Positions 13,356 through 32,306 of a stretch of 34,968 bases of DNA are shown here, one piece after another. A program made the translations under genes and the position numbers. The stretch lies in contig JAQGOU010000641.1 of assembly GCA_028293445.1 (NCBI GenBank), positions 1 to 34,968 of the forward strand, in the 5' to 3' direction. Position 1 is the stretch's first letter, and each line of letters begins with the position of its first letter. The notes beneath the pieces are model-generated. The model searched no databases. It was given only the letters and a program-made list of their open reading frames with translations, and was not told where the DNA came from. This DNA is from Verrucomicrobiales bacterium. Its GTDB lineage: Bacteria > Verrucomicrobiota > Verrucomicrobiia > Limisphaerales > JACDHS01.

Positions 13356-13395
13356 TTTGGTGCTAGCGCACGGCCACGGCGCCTGCGGCGCATCT

Positions 13396-13472
13396 GCTTC
13401 CGTAGCTTAAATCGTTAAAGCAACCCGTTGTCTGCGGGAAGAGTGTGGGTGCAACTCCCACCGGAGGCGCCA
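13396..13472 (+). tRNA. tRNA-Asp(GUC)
   Basis: Acceptor GCTTCCG/CGGAGGC, discriminator G (as expected for Asp), CCA encoded. Anticodon loop TTGTCTG. T arm GTGGG-TGCAACT-CCCAC with G55. The D loop AAATCGTTA lacks GG. Confidence 0.85.
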
Positions 13473-13479
13473 TTTTTAC

Positions 13480-13554
13480 TGCTCAGTGGGATAATAGTAG
13501 TCCACCCGCTTGTTAAGCGGAACGGTGTTGGTGCGATTCCGACCTGAGCAGCCA
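13480..13554 (+). tRNA. tRNA-Asn(GUU)
   Basis: Acceptor TGCTCAG/CTGAGCA, discriminator G, CCA encoded. Anticodon loop TTGTTAA on a CCGC/GCGG stem. T loop TGCGATT (G55). Confidence 0.85.
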
Positions 13555-13589
13555 TTTTGATTACTAACCAACCGAAAGAAAGGAAGCCA

Positions 13590-13733
13590 ATGAAGCCAGT
13601 CAATCGTTATAAAAGTCAGTTGCTCTATAGTAAGAGCTACAAGCCGGTCCGCACCTTTCGAATCCGTCAGGGCGTGAAGAGCGGCCTGACGTTTCGCCCC
13701 ACACGCCTCAGTGTCGATCGAAAGATCGCGTGA
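13590..13733 (+). CDS. Small basic protein between tRNA genes
   Basis: A 47-residue protein, MKPVNRYKSQLLYSKSYKPV followed by RTFRIRQGVKSGLTFRPTRL and ending VDRKIA. It is preceded by a good ribosome-binding site (AAAGGAAG, six bases before the ATG). About a quarter of its residues are Lys or Arg, which fits RNA binding. I do not recognise the family. It lies between tRNA-Asn and tRNA-Ile and is followed at once by a large hairpin. Being embedded in an RNA array, it could be an RNA-binding accessory or a relic. Confidence 0.55.
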   Translation: MKPVNRYKSQLLYSKSYKPVRTFRIRQGVKSGLTFRPTRLSVDRKIA

Positions 13734-13738
13734 ACGCT

Positions 13739-13779
13739 TGCCGGCTGCTGCTTTTCTATAGCGAAAGCAGTGGCCGGCA
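13739..13779 (+). other. 16-bp perfect hairpin between small ORF and tRNA-Ile
   Basis: TGCCGGCTGCTGCTTT pairs along its whole length with AAAGCAGTGGCCGGCA (two G-U pairs), with loop TCTATAGCG. There is no T run, so it is more likely an RNA processing or stability element than a terminator. Confidence 0.6.
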
Positions 13780-13790
13780 CGCTAGTGCCC

Positions 13791-13861
13791 CCTTCTGTAG
13801 CTCAAAAGCAGAGCACCCGCCTGATAAGCGGGAGAACACGGAGCGTTACCGCGCAGAAGGA
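13791..13861 (+). tRNA. tRNA-Ile(GAU)
   Basis: Acceptor CCTTCTG/CAGAAGG, discriminator A, followed by GCA rather than CCA. The anticodon arm CCCGC-CTGATAA-GCGGG is perfect. The T loop AGCGTTA lacks both T54 and A58, but G55 and C56 are present. The short D loop AAAAGCA has no GG. Confidence 0.8.
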
Positions 13862-13865
13862 GCAT

Positions 13866-13941
13866 CCCCTAAATAGCTGAGATAGATTAGCGCCTCGTTG
13901 AAGCCGAGGAGACGTTGGTGCGATACCAACTTTGGGGACCA
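13866..13941 (+). tRNA. tRNA-Phe(GAA)
   Basis: Acceptor CCCCTAA with TTTGGGG (one T-T mismatch), discriminator A, CCA encoded. Anticodon arm CCTCG-TTGAAGC-CGAGG. T arm GTTGG-TGCGATA-CCAAC (G55). Confidence 0.8.
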
Positions 13942-13951
13942 TTTTTAATAT

Positions 13952-14029
13952 GTCCGTGAATGCAAAGCAGATCGAGCAATCCGTTTTTCCAACGGAGCCT
14001 AGCCGGTGCAAGTCCGGCCACGGATACCA
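13952..14029 (+). tRNA. tRNA-Glu(UUC)
   Basis: Acceptor GTCCGTG/CACGGAT, discriminator A, CCA encoded. Anticodon arm TCCGT-TTTTCCA-ACGGA. T arm GCCGG-TGCAAGT-CCGGC (G55). Position 37 is C, which is unusual. Confidence 0.8.
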
Positions 14030-14033
14030 ATTC

Positions 14034-14111
14034 GTCCACGTAGCTCAGTTAGATTAGAGCGCCACTTTGCGAAGGTGGAGGTCACAGGTGCGAGTCCTGT
14101 CGTGGACACCA
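14034..14111 (+). tRNA. tRNA-Arg(GCG)
   Basis: Acceptor GTCCACG/CGTGGAC, discriminator A, CCA encoded. Anticodon loop TTGCGAA. The D arm GCTC-AGTTAGATTA-GAGC is the clearest case where the usual GG reads AG. T arm ACAGG-TGCGAGT-CCTGT (G55). Confidence 0.88.
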
Positions 14112-14122
14112 TTTTATGTTTT

Positions 14123-14198
14123 CAGGATTGTGGTGTAATCAGCAGCATCTTCGTTTGTGAAACGAACGGTCCGGGTGCGAATCCCGGCTTCCTGACCA
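14123..14198 (+). tRNA. tRNA-His(GUG)
   Basis: Acceptor CAGGA/TCCTG (five pairs, then mismatches), discriminator A, CCA encoded. Anticodon arm TTCGT-TTGTGAA-ACGAA. T arm CCGGG-TGCGAAT-CCCGG (G55). The bacterial His identity pair G-1:C73 is not evident. Confidence 0.8.
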
Positions 14199-14210
14199 AT
14201 TTATAGTTTT

Positions 14211-14342
14211 CGATGGGCCGAAGTTTGCAGGTTATCTCACGCAAGGGGAGGACGCTCGCCACGAGAGAGCGCCGGGACGAAAGTTCAGGTCGGGTTCGAT
14301 TCCCGTTACGAGATCCCCACTCTGCGACGCACTTGTCCATCG
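14211..14342 (+). ncRNA. Y RNA a (Ro-binding stem with tRNA-like T-arm domain)
   Basis: The ends pair as CGATGGGC/GTCCATCG. The 5' strand continues CCGAAGTTTGCAGGTTATC and the 3' strand ends CGCACTTGTCC. This closely follows the Ro-binding ends of vertebrate Y1 RNA (GGUCCGAAG...GUUAUC and GCACUUG, from memory). Inner helix TTGCAG/CTGCGA. The domain inside has a canonical T arm (CGGG-TTCGATT-CCCG), a GG-CGCTC/GAGCG-CC hairpin and an ATCTC/GAGAT stem next to the Ro stem, so its tRNA-like part is arranged differently from units c-e. It begins 13 bp after tRNA-His. Confidence 0.72.
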
Positions 14343-14349
14343 ACTCTTT

Positions 14350-14458
14350 CACGGGCCGACGGTTTTTGGGTTATTGGAAAAGCAGTCTTCGGACTGTGAG
14401 CGGGTTCAAGTCCCGCCGATCAGGCAACTGATTGATCCCAGGCCAGACCTTGTCCGTG
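14350..14458 (+). ncRNA. Y RNA b (reduced tRNA-like domain)
   Basis: The closing helix CACGGGC/GTCCGTG has a changed pair relative to unit a that is compensated on the other strand. Conserved CCGA and CTT internal loop, inner helix TTTGGG/CCCAGG, then TTAT. The inside holds a UUCG-capped hairpin (CAGTC-TTCG-GACTG), a canonical T arm (GCGGG-TTCAAGT-CCCGC) and acceptor CGATCAG capped by the tetraloop GCAA and paired with CTGATTG. After AT the 3' inner-helix strand begins, so there is no D arm. This is a permuted acceptor/T-arm mini-helix rather than a full tRNA mimic. Confidence 0.75.
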
Positions 14459-14463
14459 TTTCC

Positions 14464-14485
14464 AACGAACCACAGAGCGGTTCGT
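14464..14485 (+). other. Hairpin between Y RNAs b and c
   Basis: ACGAACC pairs with GGTTCGT around loop ACAGAGC, followed by a short pyrimidine run. It may separate or terminate transcripts between units. Confidence 0.4.
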
Positions 14486-14492
14486 CAACTTT

Positions 14493-14620
14493 CGACGGGT
14501 CGTTGAATTGGGTTATCCCTATCACGGACGTGGTCGCCGGTTCGAGTCCGGCCTTCGGCTCCATTTGCCGGAGTAGCTCAGTGGTAGAGCACGTATTCCC
14601 AGTTCACTCCTTATCCGTCG
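14493..14620 (+). ncRNA. Y RNA c (circularly permuted tRNA mimic)
   Basis: Closing helix CGACGGGT/ATCCGTCG (covaries: GGGT with ATCC). Inner helix TGAATTGGG/CCCAGTTCA, 9 bp. In between come GTTAT, T arm GCCGG-TTCGAGT-CCGGC, acceptor 3' strand CTTCGGC (14553-14559), 7-nt loop TCCATTT, acceptor 5' strand GCCGGAG (14567-14573) and a canonical D arm GCTC-AGTGGTA-GAGC. The acceptor halves are in reverse of tRNA order and pair perfectly (one G-U). This matches the YrlA architecture, in which the anticodon arm is replaced by the Ro-binding stem. Confidence 0.85.
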
Positions 14621-14642
14621 TTTCTCTTCTGCACTTCAATTT

Positions 14643-14772
14643 CGATGGGCCGTTGATAGTGGGTTATTGGAACTGTTGGTTGGTGGTTCGAATCCGTCCT
14701 CGCGTTGTTTCAGCGCGAGTAGCTCAATTGGATAGAGCAGCAGTAAACATCCACGTCGCTTCTTGTCCGTCG
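14643..14772 (+). ncRNA. Y RNA d (circularly permuted tRNA mimic)
   Basis: Closing helix CGATGGGC/GTCCGTCG, then CCGTTGA and GGGTTAT. Inner helix GTGGGT/ATCCAC. T arm loop TTCGAAT. Acceptor CTCGCGT (14699-14705), loop TGTTTCA, partner GCGCGAG (14713-14719). D arm GCTC-AATTGGATA-GAGC with the canonical GG. A tRNA-like stem GCAGT/ACTGT can form where the anticodon stem would be. The next unit follows after only six bases, so processing rather than separate promoters is likely. Confidence 0.85.
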
Positions 14773-14778
14773 TCTTTT

Positions 14779-14893
14779 TAATGGGCCGTTAGATTCAGGT
14801 TATCTGTCATTGGTTCGACTCCAATCTGCTCCGCTAAACGGGGCAGTAGCTCAGAAGGTAGAGCAATTCTCTGGATCGTTCCCTTGCCCATTA
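14779..14893 (+). ncRNA. Y RNA e (circularly permuted tRNA mimic)
   Basis: Closing helix TAATGGGC/GCCCATTA is perfect, with compensated changes at four positions relative to unit d. CCGTTAG and GGTTAT are present. Inner helix GATTCAG/CTGGATC. T arm ATTGG-TTCGACT-CCAAT. Acceptor CTGCTCC (14826-14832), loop GCTAAAC, partner GGGGCAG (14840-14846). D arm GCTC-AGAAGGTA-GAGC, GG present. Confidence 0.85.
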
Positions 14894-14952
14894 CAATTTC
14901 CACAGCCGATTGGTTGCGGAGCGTTCACCATAAACACAACCCAGGAGGTTAT

Positions 14953-15042
14953 ATGCATACAAAACAAAATCATGAAGACGGGCCGTTTTTTCGAGATCAC
15001 CAGCAAACGGCGCAAAGGGTTCCCATCGGAAACACGGGTTAA
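14953..15042 (+). CDS. Possible 29-residue leader peptide
   Basis: [20 protein letters not shown] followed by nine more residues and a stop. The reason to list it is the best ribosome-binding site in the area (CCAGGAGGTTAT, ATG two bases on). The ATG of the SEC-C-like gene lies 19 bases further, in another frame, without its own site. It may be a translated leader, or the two frames may be one gene broken by a frameshift. Confidence 0.35.
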
Positions 15043-15166
15043 GAAAGGTCTGAGAATCGTTCATGGAGATAAAGAGCTCCACGAGAAACTCGGGCGCAAT
15101 GATCTGTGTCCGTGCGATTCAGGACGCAGCTTTCAAAAACTGTTGTATGCACTCGGGACGCTATGA
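14972..15166 (+). CDS. Small SEC-C-motif-like protein
   Basis: About 64 residues, [20 protein letters not shown]..., then [20 protein letters not shown]. The segment [17 protein letters not shown] matches the SEC-C zinc motif (GRNDPCPCGSGKKYKKCC), but the C-terminal Cys-Cys pair is replaced, so metal binding is probably weakened. The N-terminal half is very basic and could contact RNA. It lies between Y RNAs e and f, directly upstream of rsr. Its start is uncertain (see the overlapping frame at 14953). Confidence 0.5.
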
Positions 15167-15212
15167 CGGATCGCTGCGGAAATATTATTCCCGGTAAAAA
15201 GACTCAATTCGA

Positions 15213-15274
15213 TGCGGGCCGAATGTGATGGGTTATCGCCTGATAAACGAACCGTCCCATCCACCTTGCCCGCA
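15213..15274 (+). ncRNA. Y RNA f (minimal, no tRNA-like domain)
   Basis: Closing helix TGCGGGC/GCCCGCA (a further compensated variant), CCGAATG after it, inner helix GTGATGGG with CCCATCCAC (one bulged C), then GGGTTAT with a small TTATC-GCCT-GATAA hairpin, and CACCTTGCCC on the 3' strand. At 62 nt it keeps only the Ro-binding module. It lies 61 bp upstream of the rsr start codon, so it is either an independent Y RNA or a 5'-UTR element through which Ro could bind its own messenger (inference). Confidence 0.75.
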
Positions 15275-15335
15275 CTACAGATTCGTTGGAGTCAAATCAA
15301 TCGGCTCCGGCAACACCAGAAAGGAAAACCAAACT

Positions 15336-16985
15336 ATGGCACTCAATTACGCAAAACTGTTTAACCGCCGCGTGACTCCACAGTCACAGCCGATTCCTGG
15401 ATCGAGTCAGGTCCGCAACTCGGCGGGCGGGTATTCATGGGAAGTCGATGACTGGCAGAAGCTCGATCGCTTTCTTATACTCGGAGCGGAAGGCGGCACT
15501 TACTACATCGGCGAGCGCGATCTCGTGAAACAGAATCACGACGCGATCATTCGCTGTATCAAGTTCAACGGTGCGCGTGTGGTCAATCGCATCGTCGAAA
15601 TCTCGGAGAGCGGCCGCGCTCCGAAAAACGATCCAGCGATCTTCGCCCTCGCGCTTGTGGTCACGCACGCGGTGCCGGAGGTGAAAGCGCACGCCTTCGC
15701 AAACTTGAACAAAGTTTGCCGCATCGGGACGCACCTCTTCCACTTCGCGCAGTATGTGAACGCGATGCGCGGGTGGGGACGTGGGCTGCGCAATGCCGTT
15801 TCGAGTTGGTATGCGTCGCAAAGCGTCGACGCACTCGCGTTGCAGGTCATTAAATATCAGCAGCGCGATGGCTGGTCGCATAGCGACTTGCTCCGTCTTG
15901 CCCATGCGAAAGCGCCGAGTCGTGAATACGACACGCTCTTTCGCTGGATTCTTGCGGGTGAGAGTGGTCTTGGTGAGCGCACGGTTTCACGCAAAGTGAA
16001 CGGTGAAAACCGCGTGGCTAAATACCAGGCCGTCGGTGAACTGCCGCAGTTGGTTCAAGCCTTCGAGCAAGCGAAACGCGCGTTGAGCAAAAGCGAAATC
16101 GTGAAACTCATCACGGATTCGAATTTGCCGCGCGAAGCCATCCCGACGCAATGGCTGAATGAGGTCGCGGTGTGGGATGCGTTGCTTCAACGCATGCCGA
16201 TGACCGCGATGATTCGTAACCTCGGTAAGATGACGAGTCTCGGCTTGCTGAAACCCTTCAGCGACGCCCGGAAGCTTGTCGTCACCAAGCTGAAAGACGA
16301 ATCCGCATTGAAACGCGCCCGTGTTCATCCTCTGGCCATCTTGATCGCAGCGAAAATCTACGCTCAAGGACATGGCGATAAAGGCGATCTGAAATGGTCG
16401 CCTGTTTCGCAGGTCGTGGATGCACTCGATGAGGCGTTTTATGCGACGTTTGCCAACGTTGAGCCTTCCGGCAAACCGGTCCTGTTGGCTCTCGACGTCA
16501 GTGGCTCGATGGGGATCTCGATGATTGCGGGCTCGTGCCTGAGTGCGCGTGAAGCCAGTGCCGCGATGGCATTGATCACGGCGGCTACGGAAGACGAATG
16601 CCACATCATGGGATTCTCCAGTGAGTTCGTTCCATTGAACATCTCGCCGCGCATGCGTCTGGATGATGTCGTCAAACGCCTGAGTAGCTTGCCGTTTGCG
16701 GCGACCGACTGCGCGTTACCGATGGTTTGGGCGCAGCGCAATAAGCTCAATGTTTCCGCATTCGTGACCTACACGGACTCGGAGACGTGGGCGGGGAACG
16801 TGCACCCTTCACAAGCATTGCGCGCTTATCGCGGAGAATTCGCACCGGATGCAAAAGCGGTGGTCGTCGGCATGACGAGTAACGGCTTCACCCTCGCGGA
16901 TCCAAACGATCGCGGGATGTTGGACGTCGTTGGCTTCGATACCGCGGCACCCGCTGTTATCGCGGATTTCATCCGCAGTGGATAA
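15336..16985 (+). CDS. rsr: Ro60/Rsr RNA-binding protein (TROVE + vWA)
   Basis: A 549-residue orthologue of Ro60/Rsr, the ring-shaped protein that binds Y RNAs on its outer face and 3' ends of misfolded or decaying RNAs in its pore, and in bacteria works with PNPase and RNA repair. The TROVE domain spans residues ~10-360 (NSAGGYSWEVDDWQKLDRFL, LGAEGGTYY, HDAIIRCIKFNGARVVNRIVEIS). The C-terminal vWA domain has an intact MIDAS: D387-x-S389-x-S391 (LDVSGSMG) and D481 (TYTDSETW). The start is set by AAGGAA about ten bases before the ATG; upstream in-frame codons would overlap Y RNA f. A terminator follows. The tandem Y RNAs immediately upstream are its expected ligands. Confidence 0.95.
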   Translation: MALNYAKLFNRRVTPQSQPIPGSSQVRNSAGGYSWEVDDWQKLDRFLILGAEGGTYYIGERDLVKQNHDAIIRCIKFNGARVVNRIVEISESGRAPKNDPAIFALALVVTHAVPEVKAHAFANLNKVCRIGTHLFHFAQYVNAMRGWGRGLRNAVSSWYASQSVDALALQVIKYQQRDGWSHSDLLRLAHAKAPSREYDTLFRWILAGESGLGERTVSRKVNGENRVAKYQAVGELPQLVQAFEQAKRALSKSEIVKLITDSNLPREAIPTQWLNEVAVWDALLQRMPMTAMIRNLGKMTSLGLLKPFSDARKLVVTKLKDESALKRARVHPLAILIAAKIYAQGHGDKGDLKWSPVSQVVDALDEAFYATFANVEPSGKPVLLALDVSGSMGISMIAGSCLSAREASAAMALITAATEDECHIMGFSSEFVPLNISPRMRLDDVVKRLSSLPFAATDCALPMVWAQRNKLNVSAFVTYTDSETWAGNVHPSQALRAYRGEFAPDAKAVVVGMTSNGFTLADPNDRGMLDVVGFDTAAPAVIADFIRSG

Positions 16986-16990
16986 ATCAA

Positions 16991-17029
16991 AGCAGTCGCT
17001 GTGCAAACGGCGACTGCTCTTCTTAATTT
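16991..17029 (+). terminator. Intrinsic terminator after rsr
   Basis: AGCAGTCGC pairs with GCGACTGCT (9 bp, loop of 10) and is followed by CTTCTTAATTT, six bases after the rsr stop. Confidence 0.8.
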
Positions 17030-17078
17030 GGACCAGACCAGCAGCCTGAGTGAACTCTTCACGGAAGGTCCTGCGCAT

Positions 17079-17143
17079 AGGTTGGTCTACGTCGAATAGA
17101 AATCGACCCTGGTAAACAGTGGGTTCGAATCCCATACAGCTTG
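17079..17143 (+). tRNA. Reduced tRNA-like RNA with canonical T loop (Ser/Leu-like or pseudogene)
   Basis: Anticodon-like arm GTCGA-ATAGAAA-TCGAC, small variable hairpin CTG-GTAAA-CAG as in class II tRNAs, T arm GTGGG-TTCGAAT-CCCAT (T55 canonical), then CAGCTT. A six-pair acceptor can form with AGGTTG at 17079, leaving no room for a D arm; a full-length fold with an acceptor further upstream pairs poorly. Either a D-armless tRNA-like RNA or a decayed tRNA-Ser/Leu gene. Confidence 0.4.
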
Positions 17144-17280
17144 AGGCATCCAGATCCGCGCGCGAGCGCAACCCCACGGAACTTTGTGAGAGGGTGAAAG
17201 GGTTTTCCCGTTTCCGAAAGGTGATCTGCTGCTTCAGGCTAAAATTTCAATCGCAATTAAATCAAGCAAAGGAGGAAGTA

Positions 17281-18072
17281 ATGAAAGTTGAGATCCTATT
17301 TATCATTGGCCTTGCCCTGGCCTTTGTTTTCGGCGCGTGCATACGGAAGAAAGTGCGCCGCGCCTTTATTGTCCCCGAAGGTTATGCCGGTCTGCTCTAC
17401 CAATACGGTCAGTTCGTGGAAACGCTCGGCGCAGGGCGACACATTCGTTGGGGGCTGAACTTCACTTTGGAACCGGTCGACTTCCGTAAAGCATTCCTCA
17501 ACGTCCCGGGTCAAGAGGTTCTTACCGCGGATACTGTTGGTCTCAAGGTGAGTTTGTCGTTGGCCTACCAGATGACGGACCCGATCAAGGCCGCTCACGA
17601 CACGCAGAATTGGCAGACCGATCTCTACAATTCCGCGCAGTTGGCGTTGCGTTCTGTCATTGGCGGCCTTGCGACCGAAGCCTTGCTGGACCAGCGCCTG
17701 GAGATCGGCGCGCAACTTCTCGCTCGTGTGCAACCGGACGCAGCGAAGGTCGGCATTCACGTTCTTGCTGTGGAGGTGAAGGACGTGATGTTTCCGGCCG
17801 AACTGAAACGCGCCTTTGCGGAAGTGTTGAAGGCGAAACAAGAAGGCCAGGCCGCGCTCGAACGTGCACGTGGCGAAAGCGCGGCTCTCCGCAATCTCGC
17901 CAACGCCGCTCGTGTGCTGGACGGAAACCCAGCGCTGATGAACCTCCGTCTGTTGCAGTCGATGGATGCAGCGCACAACGCTGGTAGCACGCTGATGTTT
18001 GGAATGCCAAACGGTTTCGTGCCGTTGAAAGCCGGCAAGCCGATCTCAGAAAAAGAAGCGGGTGAAACTTAA
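17281..18072 (+). CDS. Slipin / SPFH (band 7) family membrane protein
   Basis: 263 residues: an N-terminal membrane anchor (ILFIIGLALAFVFGACI), then the SPFH domain (RAFIVPEGYAGLLYQYGQFVETLGAGRHIRWG, TADTVGLKVSLSLAYQMTDP, VEVKDVMFPAELKRAFAEVLKAK) and an Ala/Glu-rich coiled coil (KQEGQAALERARGESAALRN). These proteins oligomerise in detergent-resistant membrane patches. The start is fixed by AAAGGAGGAAGTAATG. SPFH proteins recur beside Ro and RtcB genes in bacterial RNA-repair loci (established in general terms), so here it probably tethers the Ro/Y RNA machinery to the membrane (inference). A hairpin terminator follows. Confidence 0.9.
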   Translation: MKVEILFIIGLALAFVFGACIRKKVRRAFIVPEGYAGLLYQYGQFVETLGAGRHIRWGLNFTLEPVDFRKAFLNVPGQEVLTADTVGLKVSLSLAYQMTDPIKAAHDTQNWQTDLYNSAQLALRSVIGGLATEALLDQRLEIGAQLLARVQPDAAKVGIHVLAVEVKDVMFPAELKRAFAEVLKAKQEGQAALERARGESAALRNLANAARVLDGNPALMNLRLLQSMDAAHNAGSTLMFGMPNGFVPLKAGKPISEKEAGET

Positions 18073-18076
18073 TCAA

Positions 18077-18117
18077 AACGCGAGCGGGTGTGAATGCATT
18101 CGCTCGCGTTCTTGGTT
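18077..18117 (+). terminator. Hairpin terminator after slipin
   Basis: AACGCGAGCG pairs with CGCTCGCGTT (10 bp, 14-nt loop), followed by CTTGGTT; a weak T run. Confidence 0.6.
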
Positions 18118-18207
18118 GCGGTTCATCTTTTAATCGGAAGGCCATTTGAAAGTTAAATGCGTATTCCTGTCTCGACGCAGTTGCATGCGAATGAGAGGGT
18201 GCCCTTC

Positions 18208-18876
18208 ATGATGAGCGTTCGCGCGAAGGTAGCTTTGGAACTAGGTATCATCGCATTGCTCACAACAGTCTTTCTCGTTTTATTTCCACACAGAAATCCG
18301 TTGATGGATATGGGACTTGCGACATTAGCCTTGGTCGCCCTTGGCTTGTCTGCGAAGTACACGAAGAACGTGGTTTGGGCGGCGTCACCATCTCCAATTC
18401 CTGAGCCTCGGATGAAACGCTGTTTGAAGGTGGCTCTCTGGGTAACTTTGCTGCCGGCGTTACTCTTCTTGCTCATCGGTGCGGTCATTGCTTACCGGAG
18501 TGGTGGCTGGCCAGCGGTCGTCAGCAGGGTATTCAATTGGAGAATCCTGGCGGCATTCTGTTGTTATCTCCCTTGGGCATTGATTCAGCAAACTCTGCTT
18601 CAGTTCTATTTACTCGGGCGATTGATGGCCTTGTTTCCAAAGCGCCATTTGTTTGTCCCGATGATTATTACGGGAGCGTGTTTCGGTCTGGTGCATTTGC
18701 CTGATGTATGGTCCGCGCTCGTCACTGTCGTGGCCGGTACAGTGTGGAGCTATATGTATTACCGTTATCGACGCTTGTTGCCATTAGCGTTCTCGCATGC
18801 GGCGCTGGGCTCAGCGTTTTACTATGGAATTTTCGGCCACGATCTTTCCGCCGAATGGAGCGCACTCCTGCCGTAG
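18208..18876 (+). CDS. CPBP-family intramembrane protein, active-site motif altered
   Basis: About 222 residues with some six membrane segments. The CPBP (type II CAAX protease/Abi) signature is recognisable as FGLVHLPDVWSALVTVVAGTVW (His of motif 2) and LPLAFSHAALG (His of motif 3). Motif 1, normally EExxxR, reads IQQTLLQFYL, so the catalytic Glu pair is replaced by Gln-Gln and this protein is probably not a normal glutamate protease. I place the start at 18208, nine bases after GAGAGGG; an in-frame ATG at 18157 would add 17 residues. It is downstream of slipin, and both are membrane proteins of the island. Members of this family occur in phage defence and bacteriocin immunity; the role here is unknown. 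Confidence 0.75.
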   Translation: MMSVRAKVALELGIIALLTTVFLVLFPHRNPLMDMGLATLALVALGLSAKYTKNVVWAASPSPIPEPRMKRCLKVALWVTLLPALLFLLIGAVIAYRSGGWPAVVSRVFNWRILAAFCCYLPWALIQQTLLQFYLLGRLMALFPKRHLFVPMIITGACFGLVHLPDVWSALVTVVAGTVWSYMYYRYRRLLPLAFSHAALGSAFYYGIFGHDLSAEWSALLP

Positions 18877-18942
18877 ACACTGAGCCGCTCAGAAGCCGCA
18901 AGTCAGACAAACAATTCCCTCGCGCATCTCATTGCGCTCTCT

Positions 18943-19014
18943 ATCCCATTAGCCGAGTAGCTCAGGCGACGGTCTGCAAAACCGTTTACGTTGGTGCGAT
19001 TCCAACATGGGATT
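18943..19014 (+). tRNA. tRNA-Cys(GCA)
   Basis: Acceptor ATCCCAT/ATGGGAT, discriminator T (Cys identity), CCA not encoded. Anticodon arm ACGGT-CTGCAAA-ACCGT. D arm GCC/GGC with loop GAGTAGCTCA. T arm GTTGG-TGCGATT-CCAAC (G55). Confidence 0.85.
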
Positions 19015-19022
19015 CTAATTTC

Positions 19023-19098
19023 GCGGCAGTGATGTGAAGAACCAGCATGTCAGTCTTCCAAACTGATCGTCCGGGTGAGAATCCCGGTTGCCGCACCA
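19023..19098 (+). tRNA. tRNA-Gly(UCC)
   Basis: Acceptor GCGGCAG/TTGCCGC, discriminator A (Gly usually has U), CCA encoded. Anticodon arm TCAGT-CTTCCAA-ACTGA. T arm CCGGG-TGAGAAT-CCCGG: G55 as in the others, and uniquely A at position 56. Confidence 0.8.
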
Positions 19099-19121
19099 AC
19101 TCTAGAAAAGAAAAATGCGTG

Positions 19122-19283
19122 ATGAAGTCTCAAATGAGATTGGCGCTCCCGCAAGCGGGATTAAGTCCTGACGCCCCGGCACTAAGATCTCAAAGCCGGA
19201 AAGGGACCCGAGCTCATCACCACGCAGAAGGAATTTACTCGTTCCGAAGACTCCTTCAACCGGAAGTTATTCACGAAATTTAG
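19122..19283 (+). CDS. Doubtful 53-residue ORF or structured RNA
   Basis: The frame reads MKSQMRLALPQAGLSPDAPA then LRSQSRKGTRAHHHAEGIYS and ends LLQPEVIHEI; basic, no family recognised, and only a weak purine tract (AAAAGAAAAA) upstream. The same stretch forms many hairpins (TGAGAT with ATCTCA enclosing GGCG/CGCC and TCCCGC-AA-GCGGGA; CCGGC/GCCGG; GAAGGA/TCCTTC), so it may be an RNA gene of the island instead. Confidence 0.3.
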   Translation: MKSQMRLALPQAGLSPDAPALRSQSRKGTRAHHHAEGIYSFRRLLQPEVIHEI

Positions 19284-19344
19284 GGAGGCGGGTGCGCAGT
19301 CAGGTTACACCCACCTGGCTGTGGTGGTTCGACTCCACCCTCCC
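19283..19344 (+). tRNA. Anticodon-armless tRNA-like RNA with canonical T loop
   Basis: GGGAG pairs with CTCCC as an acceptor. GGGTG pairs with CACCC as a D arm (loop CGCAGTCAGGTTA with a normal GG). Then ten bases lead directly into T arm GGTGG-TTCGACT-CCACC. There is no space for an anticodon arm. Either a deliberate minimal tRNA mimic or a tRNA gene that lost its anticodon arm. Confidence 0.45.
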
Positions 19345-19390
19345 GTTCGGTCGGTTCTCGAAAAAGGTGAAATTCCGCGATAGGAAAAAG

Positions 19391-19998
19391 ATCCTTATAC
19401 TTTTAAAAGGCAGTTTTCCGAGACGAGAAAACGTCCTTTTACAAATATTAGCGGAAAATTGTGCCGGGAAATTTGGCCTTATAAGGGAAAAGGCCGGAAA
19501 ATTGCCATGGGAAAAGTGCCTTTTACGCGTATAAGGCAAATTTCCGGGACCAAAAAACCACCTTTTACCCGTATAAGGCAAATTTTGGAGACCGGGAAAC
19601 CTCCTTTTACGCGTATAAGGCGTTTTTTGGGCGTCTGAAAACTACCTTTTACGCATATTCGAGGAAAAATTCTTCCGGGAAGTTCGTCTATACGCGTATA
19701 AGGCAAATTTTTGCTCTGTCGAAAAGACCTTTTACGCGTAAAAGGCACTTTTCCCGGAGGTTTTTCTCCTCTTTTCCGTATAGGGCAGTTTCCCCGGACC
19801 AAAATTTCGCCTTATACGCGTAAAAGGTGTTTTTCCGGGACCGCCAAAGAGCCTTTTACGCGTAAAAGGCAGTTTCGGACGACGGCGCAACGCACTTTTT
19901 GCGTAAAAGGCGTTTTTAGAGGCCCGTTTTTTTGCCTTTTACGCGTATAAGGCATTTTTCCCAGCGCCGGAATTTCTACCTTATACGCAAATTGCCTT
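19391..19998. repeat. Phased palindromic repeat array, ~42-bp period, 15 units
   Basis: Cores resembling GCCTTTTACGCGTATAAGGC recur with starts near 19393, 19435, 19477, 19519, 19561, 19603, 19646, 19687, 19728, 19769, 19810, 19852, 19893, 19935 and 19979. Units differ by point changes; the best are near-palindromes. Between cores lies a second degenerate motif, T tract-CCGGGACC-A tract. The mean spacing of 41.9 bp is four helical turns, with A/T tracts about every 10 bp, so the DNA should be curved and present all sites on one face. It is gene-free and lies between the two RNA blocks on the right of the island. Confidence 0.85.
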
Positions 19999-20067
19999 TT
20001 GTAACCGTTTGATTCTGAGACAGGTGCGGAATTCATAGCCGAATACCCGCACTTTTTCCAGTTTGCC

Positions 20068-20144
20068 GCCGCGTTAGCCCAATTAGAAGAGGCACCCCGC
20101 TCAGAACGGGGAGGTTGAAGGTGCGAGTCCTTCACGCGGTACCA
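20068..20144 (+). tRNA. tRNA-Leu(CAG), class I shape
   Basis: Acceptor GCCGCGT/ACGCGGT, discriminator A, CCA encoded. Anticodon arm CCCCG-CTCAGAA-CGGGG reads Leu, but the variable loop is only five bases, whereas bacterial tRNA-Leu normally has a long variable arm. The D loop AATTAGAAGA shows AG for GG. T loop TGCGAGT (G55). Confidence 0.82.
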
Positions 20145-20149
20145 CTTTC

Positions 20150-20224
20150 GCCCGTTTAGTCCAATGCAGAGACAGCGAACTTAAAATTCGCACAGTGCCG
20201 GTGCAAGTCCGGCAACGGGCACCA
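20150..20224 (+). tRNA. tRNA-Leu(UAA), class I shape
   Basis: Acceptor GCCCGTT/AACGGGC, discriminator A, CCA encoded. Anticodon arm GCGAA-CTTAAAA-TTCGC. Short variable loop ACAGT. T arm GCCGG-TGCAAGT-CCGGC (G55). Five bases separate it from the preceding Leu gene. Confidence 0.82.
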
Positions 20225-20258
20225 CGCTTTTGTATGTCGTCCGCGAAGGACCGAAATT

Positions 20259-20345
20259 GGAATGTCGACCAGACAAGGTTCTGGGCCTGTTTGCTAAACA
20301 GTGCGTCCCGCCTGGCGGGATGTGGTGCAAGTCCACGGCATTCCG
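20259..20345 (+). tRNA. tRNA-Ser(GCU), class II
   Basis: Acceptor GGAATGT/GCATTCC, discriminator G, CCA not encoded (CAC follows). Anticodon loop TTGCTAA. A long variable arm TCCCGCC/GGCGGGA, as expected for Ser. T arm GTGG-TGCAAGT-CCAC (G55). Confidence 0.82.
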
Positions 20346-20760
20346 CACCTCCCACGACACACTTTTTCGCGAGCCTTTCAAAGGGCTCGCTCACCACTTT
20401 CACCCCGGACGTAGCGCTCGAGGCGTCTGGCTCCCCGACGCAGTCGAACCGGGAGGAACCGCGTTCCGGGGTGAATTCATTTGCTCACGCAGAGCGATTA
20501 CCAGAAGTAATTTCCGGAATGGTGAAATGGGGAGCCGGGCAGTGCTAGGCGCGAGTGACGCGCATGTCCTAATGGACCTGTAAGGAGCGAGCAACGACGC
20601 AATGCCCGGCTCCCCATTTCAGCCATAGGCCGGGGGTCTTTTGCTTTTTGTCTTCGTTGTCGGTCTCGGCAAGATCCACCAGGGATATTGCCTTCGACCT
20701 CCGCCTCGCCAAAAAACAAAATCCCTCCCGCCATTCCGGAAATTACTTCTGGCAATCGCT
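20346..20760. repeat. Cluster of nested inverted repeats
   Basis: No gene is seen. Hairpins in order: GCGAGCC/GGCTCGC at 20369-20390; TTCACCCCGGA (20399) with TCCGGGGTGAA (20465); a 30-bp inverted repeat with one mismatch, 20493-20522 against 20731-20760; directly inside its left arm a perfect 19-bp repeat, 20523-20541 against 20603-20621, enclosing GCGC/GCGC and GTCC-TAAT-GGAC hairpins; and GGCAAGATCC/GGGATATTGCC near 20668-20692. The right arm ends at the 5' end of a damaged tRNA-Leu. It could be a non-autonomous mobile element or a highly structured RNA; no transposase is present. Confidence 0.75.
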
Positions 20761-20830
20761 CTAGCCCAACAGAAGAGGCACGACGTTGAGAACGTCGACA
20801 GCGCAGGTGCGAATCCTGCCGTGAGCACCA
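20758..20830 (+). tRNA. tRNA-Leu(GAG), 5' acceptor truncated
   Basis: Anticodon arm CGACG-TTGAGAA-CGTCG, D arm GCCC/GGC with loop AACAGAAGA, T arm GCAGG-TGCGAAT-CCTGC (G55), acceptor 3' strand CGTGAGC, discriminator A, CCA encoded. The 5' strand reads GCTC and then TA directly, so three acceptor bases (expected ACG) are missing, exactly where the neighbouring inverted repeat ends. Probably inactivated, or a variant needing 5' repair. Confidence 0.7.
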
Positions 20831-20842
20831 TTTTTTAGTCGA

Positions 20843-20916
20843 GGCTCGCAAGCATTAAAGTGATGCAACGGACTTTTAATCCGTGGAACAGGGCGCATTA
20901 CCCTGGCGGGCCACCA
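20843..20916 (+). tRNA. tRNA-Lys(UUU)
   Basis: Acceptor GGCTCGC/GCGGGCC, discriminator A, CCA encoded. Anticodon arm ACGGA-CTTTTAA-TCCGT. D arm GCAT-TAAAGTG-ATGC, no GG. T arm CAGGG-CGCATTA-CCCTG with G55 and C56 but no T54 or A58. Confidence 0.85.
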
Positions 20917-20920
20917 GTTT

Positions 20921-20995
20921 TGCCGTTGAGTGTGGAAGTCTGCACACCTGTCTTTGACACAGGTAGAGCCGGAGCGTTACCGGCAGCGGCAGCCA
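20921..20995 (+). tRNA. tRNA-Gln(UUG)
   Basis: Acceptor TGCCGTT/AGCGGCA, discriminator G (as for Gln), CCA encoded. Anticodon arm CCTGT-CTTTGAC-ACAGG. T arm GCCGG-AGCGTTA-CCGGC, the same deviant loop as tRNA-Ile. Confidence 0.85.
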
Positions 20996-21041
20996 TCCTC
21001 GCGGGCATGTAACAACAAAGGACAAACACCTCTTTAAATTT

Positions 21042-21626
21042 ATGTCCGACAAACTAAACAAAGCGACCGTCCTGGTCCTGAATCGAAACTGGCAGGCCAT
21101 CAATGTGCGCACGCCCGCCGACGCTATTTGCCAAATGGCAACCGGCGTAGCCACGGCTCTCGAGTTCGAAGGCGAGAATCAGATTCGTCCCGTCCGCTGG
21201 GCCGAATGGATCACGTTGTCGATTCGCGAAGTTGACCAGGCGATCTGCACCGTGCGCGGCCCGATTCGTCTGCCGACCGTTATTGTCCTCGCGAACTTTG
21301 CCAAGGTGCCGAAGAAGCGCCCGAAGTTTTGCGCGAAAACGATTCGTGAACGCGACGGGAATCGTTGCCAGTACACCGGCAAGGTCTTGAAGCCGGACGA
21401 AGGCAACATCGATCACGTTCTACCCCGTTCACGCGGCGGCCAGGATGTTTGGGAGAATTGCGTTTGGGCGAGCAAAGAGGTTAACAGCCGCAAAGGCAAT
21501 CGGTTGCCGGACGAGGCGGGATTGAAGTTGCTCACGACTCCAAAAGCGCCGAAAGAACTGCCGATGACGATGCTCATTCGCAATGCGCATGGAATTGCGG
21601 AGTGGAAATTGTTTTTGAACGAATAA
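21042..21626 (+). CDS. HNH endonuclease family protein
   Basis: 194 residues. The N-terminal ~85 residues (TVLVLNRNWQAINVRTPADAICQMA...WAEWITLSIRE) form the conserved leader of a widespread small HNH family. The HNH fold follows: KFCAKTIRERDGNRCQYTG, then D124-H125 (NIDHVLPRSRGG), N139 (WENCVWASKEVNSRKGNR). The zinc-binding Cys pairs of many HNH proteins are incomplete (only NRCQYTG), but the catalytic D-H...N set is intact. The start has no well-spaced Shine-Dalgarno. It lies between tRNA-Gln and RtcB; a DNA- or RNA-cutting role in the island is possible but not shown. Confidence 0.85.
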   Translation: MSDKLNKATVLVLNRNWQAINVRTPADAICQMATGVATALEFEGENQIRPVRWAEWITLSIREVDQAICTVRGPIRLPTVIVLANFAKVPKKRPKFCAKTIRERDGNRCQYTGKVLKPDEGNIDHVLPRSRGGQDVWENCVWASKEVNSRKGNRLPDEAGLKLLTTPKAPKELPMTMLIRNAHGIAEWKLFLNE

Positions 21627-22000
21627 GTCAATGAGAGCGGTGTGCCAGAATTACTGGATGCGCCGCTCTCAAAATCAAAATAGAGATGAAAAACCAAAAC
21701 AGGGAATCGGAGGACACGTGGAGACCATCGCCAAAACTGCCGACGCCATGGCGGCCAACGTCAATTTTGGCGGAGCACGATTTAAATACAGCACGGCTGA
21801 AGCACGAATGGAGGGGTAGTCGCACGGAGGCAACGTGTTTTAGATGGATTAAACTGCGGGCTATTCGTCTTACGCGAAAGTCACGCAAAGCCTTGGATTT
21901 GCTATTAAAAATGGGCCTGTATGGCCGTTAGTAAAGGTCTAACTGTCAGGGTATCCTGCCCTGTCTATTTATTGAAACCTGGAGAAGATTAATTAACTGA
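21627..22000. other. Intergenic region before rtcB
   Basis: No convincing gene. An 81-codon frame (21686-21931, basic C-terminus ending LLKMGLYGR) lacks a ribosome-binding site and overlaps another frame. A small GGCC-TGTAT-GGCC hairpin lies near 21914. A GGAGAAG stretch 13 bases before the rtcB ATG may be its ribosome-binding site. Confidence 0.4.
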
Positions 22001-23395
22001 ATGAACTCAAAAGATTTAATTCGATTGGGCGTGCCGTTTGGCGAGGCGACTCGTCGCGCGACGGATTTCATCGCGCAATACGTGCTCAGCGGCGGGGACA
22101 AATCACGCATTGAAGAGGAAGTGAAAGCGATCGTCGCGAACCCGGCGCTCTTTGCGGAGGACCCGTTGCGTAAAGAATTCGCAAAGGCCCTCGTCAACGC
22201 GCCGCCGCCGGCCCGCACGGATCCGGCCAAGTATCGCCAATGGGGCGAGGGTTTGGAATCCGAGGCGATCAATCAAATGGAGAAGGCGTGTTTCCTTCCT
22301 GTTTCGGTGGCGGGCGCGCTCATGCCGGATGCGCACGTGGGTTACGGCCTGCCGATCGGCGGTGTGTTGGCAACTGACAATTGTGTCATCCCGTACGCCG
22401 TCGGTGTCGATATCGCGTGCCGCATGAAAATGACGGTGCTCGATATTCCGGTGCGCGATCTTGAACACAAACAGGATCGTCTCACCCGCGCCATCGAGGC
22501 GGAGACACGCTTTGGCGTCGGTTCGACGTTCAAGCAACGCCGCTCCCACGACGTGCTCGATGCGGATTGGGGCTGCAGTGGCGTCACGAAACAAAATAAG
22601 GATCGCGCGTGGTCGCAGTTGGGCACGAGTGGTAGCGGTAATCACTTTGTTGAGTTCGGGCTTTTCACGGCGAACGAAAAGATTCTAGGACTTGAGCCGG
22701 GAACCTACGTCGCACTCTTGAGTCATAGCGGAAGCCGTGGCACGGGCGCTGCCGTCTGCGATTACTACAGCAAGCTTGCGGTGAAGAAACACCCTGAGCT
22801 GCCGAAGGAATTACAACGACTCGCCTGGCTTTCGCTGGACGAAGCGGATGGCCGCGAATACTGGGACGCGATGGAGTTGATGGGCCAATACGCTGCGGCG
22901 AATCACGCGTGTATCCATAAACACATGGCGGCAAACCTCGGCGCGGAAGTGTTGCTCGACCTCGAAAATCACCACAACTTTGCGTGGAAAGAAAAACACG
23001 TGATCGATGGTGTCGAACGCGAGGTCGTTGTGCATCGCAAAGGCGCGACGCCGGCCGGCGCAGGTGTGCTCGGAATTATTCCGGGCTCAATGGCGACGCC
23101 TGGGTTCGTGGTGCGCGGCAAGGGCAATGCGGAATCGTTGAATTCAGCGTCGCATGGTGCCGGACGAGTGATGAGCCGCACGAAAGCGTCCCAGACGTTT
23201 AACTGGAAAGAGGTGAATCAATTCCTGCGCGATCGCGGAGTGACGTTGATTTCGGCGGGCCTTGATGAAGTGCCGATGGTTTACAAAAACATCCATCAAG
23301 TGATGGCCGCACAATCCGATCTCGTCGACGTGATTGGTCAATTCGATCCGCGACTGGTGAAGATGGCGCCGCACGGCGAACGTGCCGAAGATTAA
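22001..23395 (+). CDS. rtcB: RNA 3'-phosphate/5'-OH ligase RtcB
   Basis: 464 residues, the GTP- and Mn2+-dependent ligase that joins RNA ends bearing 2',3'-cyclic or 3'-phosphate to 5'-OH ends, such as tRNAs cut by nucleases. All hallmark blocks are present: MPDAHVGYGLPIGGV, GVDIACRM (metal ligands D137, C140), GSGNHFVEFG, LSHSGSRGTG, NHHNFAW, HRKGATPA, IPGSMATPGFVVRG and SASHGAGRVMSR with H385 as the predicted guanylylation site. Length is close to the family norm. There is no rtcA cyclase, archease or rtcR regulator beside it. Linkage to Ro and Y RNAs recalls the rsr-yrlBA-rtcBA locus of enteric bacteria. Confidence 0.96.
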   Translation: MNSKDLIRLGVPFGEATRRATDFIAQYVLSGGDKSRIEEEVKAIVANPALFAEDPLRKEFAKALVNAPPPARTDPAKYRQWGEGLESEAINQMEKACFLPVSVAGALMPDAHVGYGLPIGGVLATDNCVIPYAVGVDIACRMKMTVLDIPVRDLEHKQDRLTRAIEAETRFGVGSTFKQRRSHDVLDADWGCSGVTKQNKDRAWSQLGTSGSGNHFVEFGLFTANEKILGLEPGTYVALLSHSGSRGTGAAVCDYYSKLAVKKHPELPKELQRLAWLSLDEADGREYWDAMELMGQYAAANHACIHKHMAANLGAEVLLDLENHHNFAWKEKHVIDGVEREVVVHRKGATPAGAGVLGIIPGSMATPGFVVRGKGNAESLNSASHGAGRVMSRTKASQTFNWKEVNQFLRDRGVTLISAGLDEVPMVYKNIHQVMAAQSDLVDVIGQFDPRLVKMAPHGERAED

Positions 23396-23440
23396 GAGCC
23401 TCGTGATAAGGCGATGGACGTTGGGTGGAGACGCGTAAGA

Positions 23441-25354
23441 TTATTGGATCATACCGCGTTTCCGCAGCATTTCTTCCATCGCCTTGTCCATGGCAAAATC
23501 GGCGAGAGACTTTGTAACCTGGTCGAGTTGCAAATTGGCTTCCTTGAGTTTGCGCGGATCGCCCGTCTTGGTTCGCGGCTCCTCGGTTTCCAGAACCTTT
23601 TCCACTTCGAGAAGCGCGTCTTCAATTTGCTTCTTGTACTCGGGATCGAGTTCCGAAGCAAATTGAGCCATGGTTTTACGGGTGGCTCCCATGTTGTCAC
23701 CGGCGTTGCGCTTCGCTTCTGTCCATTGGCGAAATCGCAAGTCGTCGAAGGCGTGATCAACCGATTCCTCGACCATCTTTTGCACTTCGGCGTCATCAAC
23801 ATCCACCGCCGATTTCATTTCAACCACCTTTTGCTTACCTGTTTTGATGTCACGGGCGAGCGCGTGGAGAATTCCATTGGCATCGATTTCAAATTGCACG
23901 CCAACGCGTGGCACGCCTTTGGGCGCCGGCTCAAATTCTATTTCAAATTTGCCCAGGCTCCAGTTATCACGGGCACGCTCGCGTTCGCCCTGCAGAACGT
24001 GGATCAGCATACTGCGTTGATTGTCTACTGCAGTCGTAAACATCTCGCCCGCTTTAATAGGGATGGTCGAGTTGCGTGGAATAATAACGTTCATTAAACC
24101 GCCGAACGTTTCGATGCCGAGTGAGAGCGGCGTGACATCCAACAGTAAAAGATTTTTGAAACCGCCCGAAAGAATTTCTGCCTGAATGGCCGCACCCAGC
24201 GCAACCGCTTCGTCAGGATTCTGTGAGGTATTGAGCTGCGGTCCCTTTCCTTTATGAAAGTCTGAACCTAGTCGGAGATCGCCACGGGCCTCATCGAATT
24301 CGGCGCAGCCAAACCACTCGGACACGAGCTTGCGGACGAGCGGCATGCGAGTCTGTCCACCAACGAGAATGATTTGATCCAGGTCTTTCGTTTCCAGTTT
24401 CGCATCGGCAACAGAGCGAAGACAATGCGGGCGCGTACGGAGAATGATGTCGCGCGTGAGAGCCTCGAGTTCGGTGCGTGTGAGCTTGTAGCCAAATGAA
24501 AATTCTGGTGTGAGAAAGGGTAACCCAATTTCCACTTCTGTTTCGGAGGAGAGACGAATCTTGGTTTGTTCGGCAACTTCCCGAATGCGGGAAAGCATGG
24601 GTAAATTGCTTTTTGCATCGGGACCACCTGCGGATTTGATCTTCTCGACGATGAACTCCACCAGTTGACTATCCAGATCATCGCCACCCAACCGGGTGTT
24701 CCCGTTGGTGGCAAGAACCTGAAACACGCCATTATTCAATTCAAGGATTGAGAGATCGAAGGTGCCACCGCCCAGGTCGTATACGGCGATCTTCGAATGC
24801 TCCTTCAGTTTATCCAATCCATAGGCAAGCGCCGCCGCTGTGGGTTCGTTGACAATGCGTTCCACCGTAAAGCCAGCCAACTCTCCGGCCCTCTTCGTTG
24901 CGTTCCGTTGTGCATCGTTGAAATAGGCCGGCACCGTGATGACAGCACGCGTGACTGGTTCGCCGAAATAACCTTCCGCATCGTGCTTCAGCTTCTTCAG
25001 GATTTCTGCGGAAACTTCTTCCGGGGCCCAACTGCGACCATGAATGTCCATCGTGACGGTTCCAGAGCCTTCGCCTCGCACCGGATAAGTCACGAGCATT
25101 TCTTCTCGGGAAATATCGGCACCGCGACGACCCATGAAACGTTTTACTGAGTAAACTGTTTCTGCCGGCTTGATCACTCGAACACGATTGGCTTTGTGCC
25201 CGACGATCGTTTCTCCAGTGGATGAAGTGAAATGAACGACGGACGGCGTGAGTCTTTGGCCTTCGGTATCGGCAATAACAAAAGGAATTCCCGAATCGAC
25301 AGTCGCAACCAGGGAATTGGTTGTGCCGAGATCAATGCCGACGATTTTACTCAT
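23441..25354 (-). CDS. dnaK: Hsp70 chaperone (DnaK/HscA-like)
   Basis: 637 residues with a complete nucleotide-binding domain: phosphate 1 motif GIDLGTTNSLVA, VPAYFNDAQRNATKRAGELAG, adenosine-side IVNEPTAAALAYGLD and phosphate 2 AVYDLGGGTFDLSIL. The substrate-binding domain has LLLDVTPLSLGIETFGG and NTTIP-like RNSTIPIKAGEMF. The C-terminal lid is short and lacks the acidic EEVD-like tail, and no GrpE or DnaJ gene is adjacent, so this is a secondary Hsp70 (HscA/HscC-like) rather than the housekeeping DnaK with certainty. I take the start at MSKIVG; ten upstream in-frame residues look like leader. It converges with rtcB. Confidence 0.9.
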   Translation of the reverse strand: MSKIVGIDLGTTNSLVATVDSGIPFVIADTEGQRLTPSVVHFTSSTGETIVGHKANRVRVIKPAETVYSVKRFMGRRGADISREEMLVTYPVRGEGSGTVTMDIHGRSWAPEEVSAEILKKLKHDAEGYFGEPVTRAVITVPAYFNDAQRNATKRAGELAGFTVERIVNEPTAAALAYGLDKLKEHSKIAVYDLGGGTFDLSILELNNGVFQVLATNGNTRLGGDDLDSQLVEFIVEKIKSAGGPDAKSNLPMLSRIREVAEQTKIRLSSETEVEIGLPFLTPEFSFGYKLTRTELEALTRDIILRTRPHCLRSVADAKLETKDLDQIILVGGQTRMPLVRKLVSEWFGCAEFDEARGDLRLGSDFHKGKGPQLNTSQNPDEAVALGAAIQAEILSGGFKNLLLLDVTPLSLGIETFGGLMNVIIPRNSTIPIKAGEMFTTAVDNQRSMLIHVLQGERERARDNWSLGKFEIEFEPAPKGVPRVGVQFEIDANGILHALARDIKTGKQKVVEMKSAVDVDDAEVQKMVEESVDHAFDDLRFRQWTEAKRNAGDNMGATRKTMAQFASELDPEYKKQIEDALLEVEKVLETEEPRTKTGDPRKLKEANLQLDQVTKSLADFAMDKAMEEMLRKRGMIQ

Positions 25355-25416
25355 GGCCGACACGTTGCCACGAAGCAACATCAAAGCAAAATCGAATTTT
25401 CCTGCTTTCCTGATCA

Positions 25417-31899: not shown

Positions 31900-32014
31900 G
31901 GTTCAGAACAGCGAGGCTGTCGCTGCCTTTGGTTTTTCCTTCACTTCACTTGCCTGCAAATTCCAAAAACGTCAAAACCCCAATAAAACCCACATAGTCC
32001 CCCTGGAAAATCGT

Positions 32015-32306
32015 CGTCAGCTATCTAGATCCAAATTTTTGCTCTAAAAAAGTGCTCTCAGCTATCTAGAACGGTTTTTTTGCTCTGAAAAACTGCCCTC
32101 AGCTGTCTGGATTGGAATTTTTGCTCCAAAATTTTGGTTCCAGCCAGCTGGATCCGTTTTTTGGCTCCAAAAAAGTGCCCTCGGCTATCTAGAACGGTTT
32201 TTTTACTCCGAAAATGGCGATCCAGACAGCCGAGGGCGTTTTTTTAGAGCAAAAATTTGGATCCAGATAGCCGAGGGTGTTTTTTTGGCTCCAAAAAAAG
32301 ACCCTC
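32015..32306. repeat. Second phased palindromic array, 41-bp period, 7 units
   Basis: Cores like CAGCTATCTAGAACGG begin at 32018, 32059, 32100, 32141 and 32182, each 41 bp apart. Two inverted copies (CCAGACAGCCGAGGGC, CCAGATAGCCGAGGG) follow at 32222 and 32263. T and A tracts (TTTTTTTGCTC, GAAAAA) fill the spacers at about 10-bp steps. Units 5 and 6 together form a large inverted repeat. Period and layout match the array at 19391-19998, but the core sequence is unrelated. Confidence 0.82.

Follow-up and report, generated by a model that had tools for sequence, protein, structure and literature searches.

Helically phased dyad arrays in dispersed non-coding elements of a Verrucomicrobiota genome

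The window analysed here is a stretch of 34,968 nucleotides, contig C654 of a 6.89-Mb draft genome (G000) of a Verrucomicrobiales bacterium. Between its tRNA genes lies an array of near-palindromes, A1, which we take, at about even confidence, to be a copy of a MITE-like element of about 0.6 kb that is non-coding, non-autonomous and dispersed in the genome; its interior would be a lattice of putative dimeric-protein sites on one helical face. A1 and a second array of the window, A2, have dispersed as whole copies; terminal repeats enclose one A2 subfamily, and the dyad arms of A1 diverge less than its spacers. Arrays of this kind are placed between genes and keep the same lattice independently of their sequence.

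Array layout and dyad spacing

The features of the window are listed in Table 1. The cores of A1 start at 19393, 19435, 19477, 19519, 19561, 19603, 19645, 19686, 19728, 19768, 19810, 19852, 19893, 19935 and 19979, that is, at distances of 40-44 bp (mean 41.86 bp). The autocorrelation peaks with 0.507 at lag 42, whereas 300 first-order Markov shuffles reached at most 0.354 at any lag. Thus the palindromic array of 15 cores that a preliminary description had read from the letters is far above chance; the 42-bp peak on which that description had staked itself is present, its mean spacing of 41.9 bp stands and its range of 41-44 bp has to be widened to 40-44 bp. The T-tract/CCGGGACC/A-tract motif that it placed at the half period is visible in the sequence as well. 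TRF detected the inner part only (19519-19658, period 42). A1 is non-coding, is flanked by tRNA genes and is self-complementary across 456 bp. Immediately upstream of the element, a tRNA-like sequence with an acceptor-like stem (19283-19345) was not called by ARAGORN.

Table 1. Features of the window and of the A2 element
Feature	Position	Strand	Description
Y-RNA-like motifs	14215, 14647, 14783, 15216		
Ro60/TROVE gene	15225-16985		
tRNA-Cys and tRNA-Gly genes	18943-19098	+	upstream of A1
Possible left terminal inverted repeat of the A1 element	19356-19379	+	TCTCGAAAAAGGTGAAATTCCGCG; matches the C648 copy's right end read as reverse complement
Array A1	19391-19998	.	15 near-palindromic cores (best CCTTTTACGCGTATAAGG) with a period of 41.86 bp; at half period, a second dyad (T-tract/CCGGGACC/A-tract)
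A1 element, right end	19986-20006	-	homology between copies stops near here
Two tRNA-Leu genes	20068-20224	+	downstream of A1
RtcB gene	22001-23395		
Array A2	32010-32305	.	period 41; a GC-richer module and a T5-GCTCC-A5 dyad take turns; sequence unrelated to A1
Ends of the A2 long-subfamily element	GGGTGTGATTGGAAGTGGGTGA / GGGTGTGATTCAAAGTGGCTGA		463 bp; terminal inverted repeats present

That the A1 element may be bounded by terminal inverted repeats is, on the sequence, suggestive only: the putative left repeat reached a score of 34 against the C648 copy's right end (0 of 500 random 60-mers reached 34, the best being 27) and of 20 against the right end in the window itself. For A2, the autocorrelation is 0.647 at lag 41 (shuffle maximum 0.411). 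The preliminary description mentions neither this array nor the dispersed copies of A1 and A2. Many A2 modules have no local palindrome, and the orientation of the units flips between the left and right halves of A2 elements.

The surroundings of A1 (13396-23395) contain an array of 11 tRNA genes and resemble a Ro/Y-RNA and RNA-repair locus of bacteria. The closest relatives of the RtcB protein are from Verrucomicrobiota, several of them from subdivision 3 or Pedosphaera. Elsewhere in the window, a histidine kinase with a WD40-type beta-propeller region (5301-8540) adjoins a response regulator (4625-5290), and a Pfam NAD-GH match antisense to an Hsp70 gene (23414-24097 and 23441-25384) is probably spurious.

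With dyads defined by at least 7 of 10 pairs, 42 arrays yielded 254 of them versus 78 in phase-permuted controls, and the dyad-to-dyad distances pile up at 20-22, 41-42, 62, 82-84 and 102-106 bp. The true unit is therefore a dyad every ~20.7 bp, i. e. every two helical turns, and the repeat of 41-42 bp results from the alternation of two different sites. The clearest example is the array at 10978-11373 of locus L173, where GGAA..TTCC alternates with TTTTAGCTTCTAAAA and the spacers of 5-7 bp vary freely. With 72 dyad pairs one period apart pooled, the identity from unit to unit is 0.88-0.91 at 5-6 bp from the dyad centre, compared with 0.62 at a distance of 1 bp and 0.50 at 10 bp, a profile that would correspond to two half-sites about one turn apart. 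The dyads are found at multiples of ~20.7 bp, and the cores lie on one helical face, as had been proposed. The proposal of strong curvature as a common feature fared less well: when 19 sequence clusters were represented by one array apiece, the A/T signal was highest at 10.4 bp, but only moderately so (mean power 8.5 vs 2.7-7.3 at other harmonics).

Abundance, spread and dispersal of the arrays

The abundance of such arrays was estimated from a scan for repeats with periods between 20 and 100, made in 100-bp windows with an identity threshold of 0.56. It covered 252 kb of G000 (30 arbitrary contigs) and 298 kb (20 arbitrary stretches) of G001, a relative from another genus of the same family; from one contig set only the arbitrarily chosen 10 of 20 contigs entered the density. 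In G000 all 16 repeats, and in G001 19 of 21, had a lag of 41, 42 or 82-85, together 35 of 37. This amounts to ~64 arrays per Mb in each genome, or ~2% of the DNA, with none in shuffles. By the gene caller, all 35 sampled arrays are non-coding, and none of 42 arrays counted in the two genomes is mostly coding. When arrays sharing at least eight 11-mers were joined, 42 arrays from G000 and G001 fell into at least 19 clusters. Spacing is kept more than sequence, as had been supposed; many unrelated clusters share one period. For G000 as a whole, the estimate is several hundred elements, belonging to many families that are unrelated in sequence. A1, initially regarded as a single special site, is one of these intergenic elements.

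Among the other genomes pooled, 7 of 57 repeats of period 20-100 had one of these lags. The counts were 1 of 6 in other families of the order (19 stretches), 5 of 42 in 80 named loci and 1 of 9 in G003, G052 and G013 together. Some of these matches are coding or tRNA repeats; true arrays are L099 and one in G003 (L295, 6259-6630). L099, a locus with a 41-bp array, belongs to an acidobacterium of group gp7 (G116, ~70% GC). In 20 stretches of G116, nine repeats with lag 41 or 42 were found; eight of them are non-coding and represent several unrelated sequences (the coding locus L238 was excluded), and G206, from the same class, has similar arrays. The stretches from G116 and G206 were partly picked via search matches, so no density is given for them. 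The same architecture with other sequences in Acidobacteriota shows that the lattice, though patchy, is not confined to one lineage.

The individual sequences are far more restricted. A1 had no match in G001 or in plasmids, and A2 was found in no other genome among 387 of the phylum. Absence or loss of phase in close relatives had been named as a refutation of the preliminary reading, and the outcome is mixed: in G001 the A1 sequence is missing, but equally phased arrays of other sequence are abundant. With a T5/A5 pattern for A2-like arrays, which detects AT-tract families only, G000 alone stood out among the 387 and 396 genomes scanned (51+31 matches; reversed control 1+3), the runner-up being G324 with 13+6. 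A lone array with ~40-bp units and T/A-tract dyads was seen in G324, which belongs to another family of the phylum (G324:C87:7330-7507). An orthologous empty A1 site was sought in G001, where the RtcB contig is not syntenic and carries no tRNA genes.

Within G000, copies of A1 are present on contigs C202 (90%), C571 (86%) and C648 (90%), with weaker ones elsewhere; several are cut by contig ends. A2 copies with 82-92% identity occur in at least eight further contigs. The copies retain variants unit by unit and share common ends; they have therefore moved as whole elements. This mode of spread fits poorly with a partition site, one of the roles first considered. One A2 subfamily, the long one, makes up the interior of an element of 463 bp that is bounded by terminal inverted repeats of ~20 bp (GGGTGTGATTNNAAGTGGNTGA), and these ends also enclose short array-free elements of 169-217 bp. 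The terminal repeat has 31 sites genome-wide in G000, with none for the reversed-pattern control. Short elements of this kind were seen at L317, L320-L323 and L337. A target-site duplication was found in one case (7 bp, TTCAGGA, at L321); it was not evident by eye in the other complete terminal-repeat pairs listed, all shorter than 900 bp, from the 30 loci with this repeat, and the A1 copy in C571 has none of 6-9 bp.

Constraint on the dyads and possible roles

Substitutions between A1 copies affected 14 of 280 positions in the dyad arms (5.0%) versus 21 of 118 in the spacers (17.8%; p = 1.3e-4), and between A2 copies, where the difference is weak, 36 of 547 versus 25 of 229 (p = 0.056); these p-values are optimistic because the copies compared have the window copy or a parent in common. 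Where both positions of a pair had changed from one unit to the next (155 cases), a Watson-Crick pair was kept in 76, versus one third by chance (p = 3.8e-5), yet 668 changes are one-sided. Symmetry therefore matters, but not strictly.

A possible interpretation is that dimeric DNA-binding proteins attach at the dyads. As the conserved half-sites at 5-6 bp on either side of the centre are about one turn apart, each major-groove turn on one face would bear a half-site, and a regular nucleoprotein array could form. The likeliest use would lie in the life of the element itself, either in recruiting the machinery that mobilises it or in packaging it. The protein-coated DNA of the preliminary description appears a sensible reading. 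Against a shared reader speaks that so many unrelated sequences would not easily be read by one protein. More tentatively, the arrays could constitute a separate class of elements set by geometry and not by sequence, with dyads at two turns, many unrelated sequences and members in at least two phyla, and read by a putative dimeric protein system that measures helical turns.

Alternatively, the dyads could be kept for the hairpins or cruciforms that they form in single strands. The element would then fold into many small hairpins or a single long rod, either as DNA while it is mobilised or as a transcript. We consider this possible but doubtful. A1 folds far more stably than its shuffles both as one DNA strand (-145.6 vs -85.1, z -7.8) and as RNA (-254.2 vs -167.3, z -9.6), and the excess of pair-keeping double changes and the foldback-like flip of orientation between the halves of A2 elements would suit hairpins too. 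However, an array at 11142-11577 of L142 keeps a single orientation throughout, so foldback is not general, and every unit of an array repeats the same motif despite diverged spacers. The mismatches show no overall excess of G-T over A-C (138 vs 139), i. e. no overall wobble signature of RNA, and heterogeneity between arrays is mild (p = 0.010, with units that are not independent). A row of dimeric proteins along one face of the double helix would fit better than hairpins because of the two-turn spacing, the half-sites one turn apart and the freely varying spacers; hairpins need no phase.

It is unlikely that the arrays are sites of chromosome organisation, at which, as first suggested, intergenic lattices would nucleate a nucleoid-associated protein, bridge DNA or silence transcription. 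The density is high and similar in two genera, and the arrays are strictly intergenic and helically phased with constrained dyads, but dispersal as whole copies and terminal inverted repeats look mobile, the distribution is patchy (absent or rare in the other families of the order) and a universal motif is missing. A nucleoid or silencing role of the elements could nevertheless exist. A silencer is not suggested by the gene arrangement, for which the raw counts show no obvious preference: among 27 arrays with both neighbours called (including a tRNA pair at 13384-13568, lag 82, that was later excluded), convergent genes flank five and divergent genes another five; for gaps of at least 150 bp, irrespective of arrays, the numbers are 21 and 33 of 142, respectively. 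A role as terminator or promoter was rejected on the same counts.

Finally, it is still less likely that the arrays are a by-product of DNA synthesis, grown by slippage or hairpin-primed template switching with a period that is the enzyme's and not selection's: this would account for unrelated sequences with the same period, for the foldback switches of A2 and for the self-complementarity of A1, but dyads stayed while spacers diverged, A1 copies retain unit-specific variants, and after dispersal the arms diverge less than the spacers.

No candidate for the protein that would bind the dyads was found among the Y1 transposases and the array-flanking genes. In 63 of the 69 listed neighbours that were scanned, no family occurred more than three times, most being single-member and unrelated, and the 25 families shown for these genes include no common regulator or transposase. 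Y1 genes are present in 12 of 12 genomes tested, with dense arrays or not. Those of G000 and G001 are flanked by another repeat, and no lattices were found near the best Y1 genes of G000, G001, G116, G206 and G003. A Y1/RAYT transposase was therefore dismissed as the partner, the best Y1 genes adjoining other repeats.

Relation to known repeat systems

Like MITEs, the arrays' elements are short, non-coding and dispersed in many copies, and one A2 subfamily has the ~20-bp terminal inverted repeats in common with array-free elements. Unlike in MITEs, the interior is a helically phased lattice of dyads. A target duplication was evident in one case. ArgR boxes and ParR/omega sites are dyads or half-sites on one helical face that are bound by dimers, one motif being present at one or few places. 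The arrays resemble them in their one-face dyads and the dimer binding proposed here, but occur at an estimated several hundred places with many motifs. With CRISPRs they have in common the regular repeats; here, however, the spacers are ~5 bp and the repeats are palindromic and vary, whereas a CRISPR has near-identical repeats and unrelated spacers of ~30 bp. No cas families were present in the 20 window proteins scanned, and the earlier distinction from a CRISPR holds. A plausible CRISPR with period 61 lies near a phased array in G001 (L158, 13550-16616), the only one seen.

REP, BIME and REPIN repeats with RAYT (Y1) transposases and GTAG/CGTC repeats have been reported in Verrucomicrobia (O. 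terrae; PMC3733652). They are likewise intergenic palindromes in many copies. A REP/RAYT system has one conserved palindrome family per genome, whereas here many unrelated sequences have one spacing. In the oyster, Helentrons carry satellite-like arrays inside non-autonomous eukaryotic elements (PMC7492417). A tandem array borne by dispersed non-autonomous elements is shared; the arrays described here are bacterial, with dyads at two-turn spacing and the same period across families.

No description of such arrays was found in the literature, most subscription journals lying outside our coverage. Dispersed non-autonomous repeats are a known kind; the lattice is the new part. Bacterial repeats are usually recognised by their sequence. 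Here many repeat families without sequence relationship have a fixed helical spacing in common, and this holds within one genome, for a relative from another genus of its family and across a phylum boundary. Whether the spacing is read can be tested directly because the arrays are abundant and easily found by autocorrelation rather than by similarity search. If a protein reads the spacing, this would represent a new means of marking or mobilising DNA.
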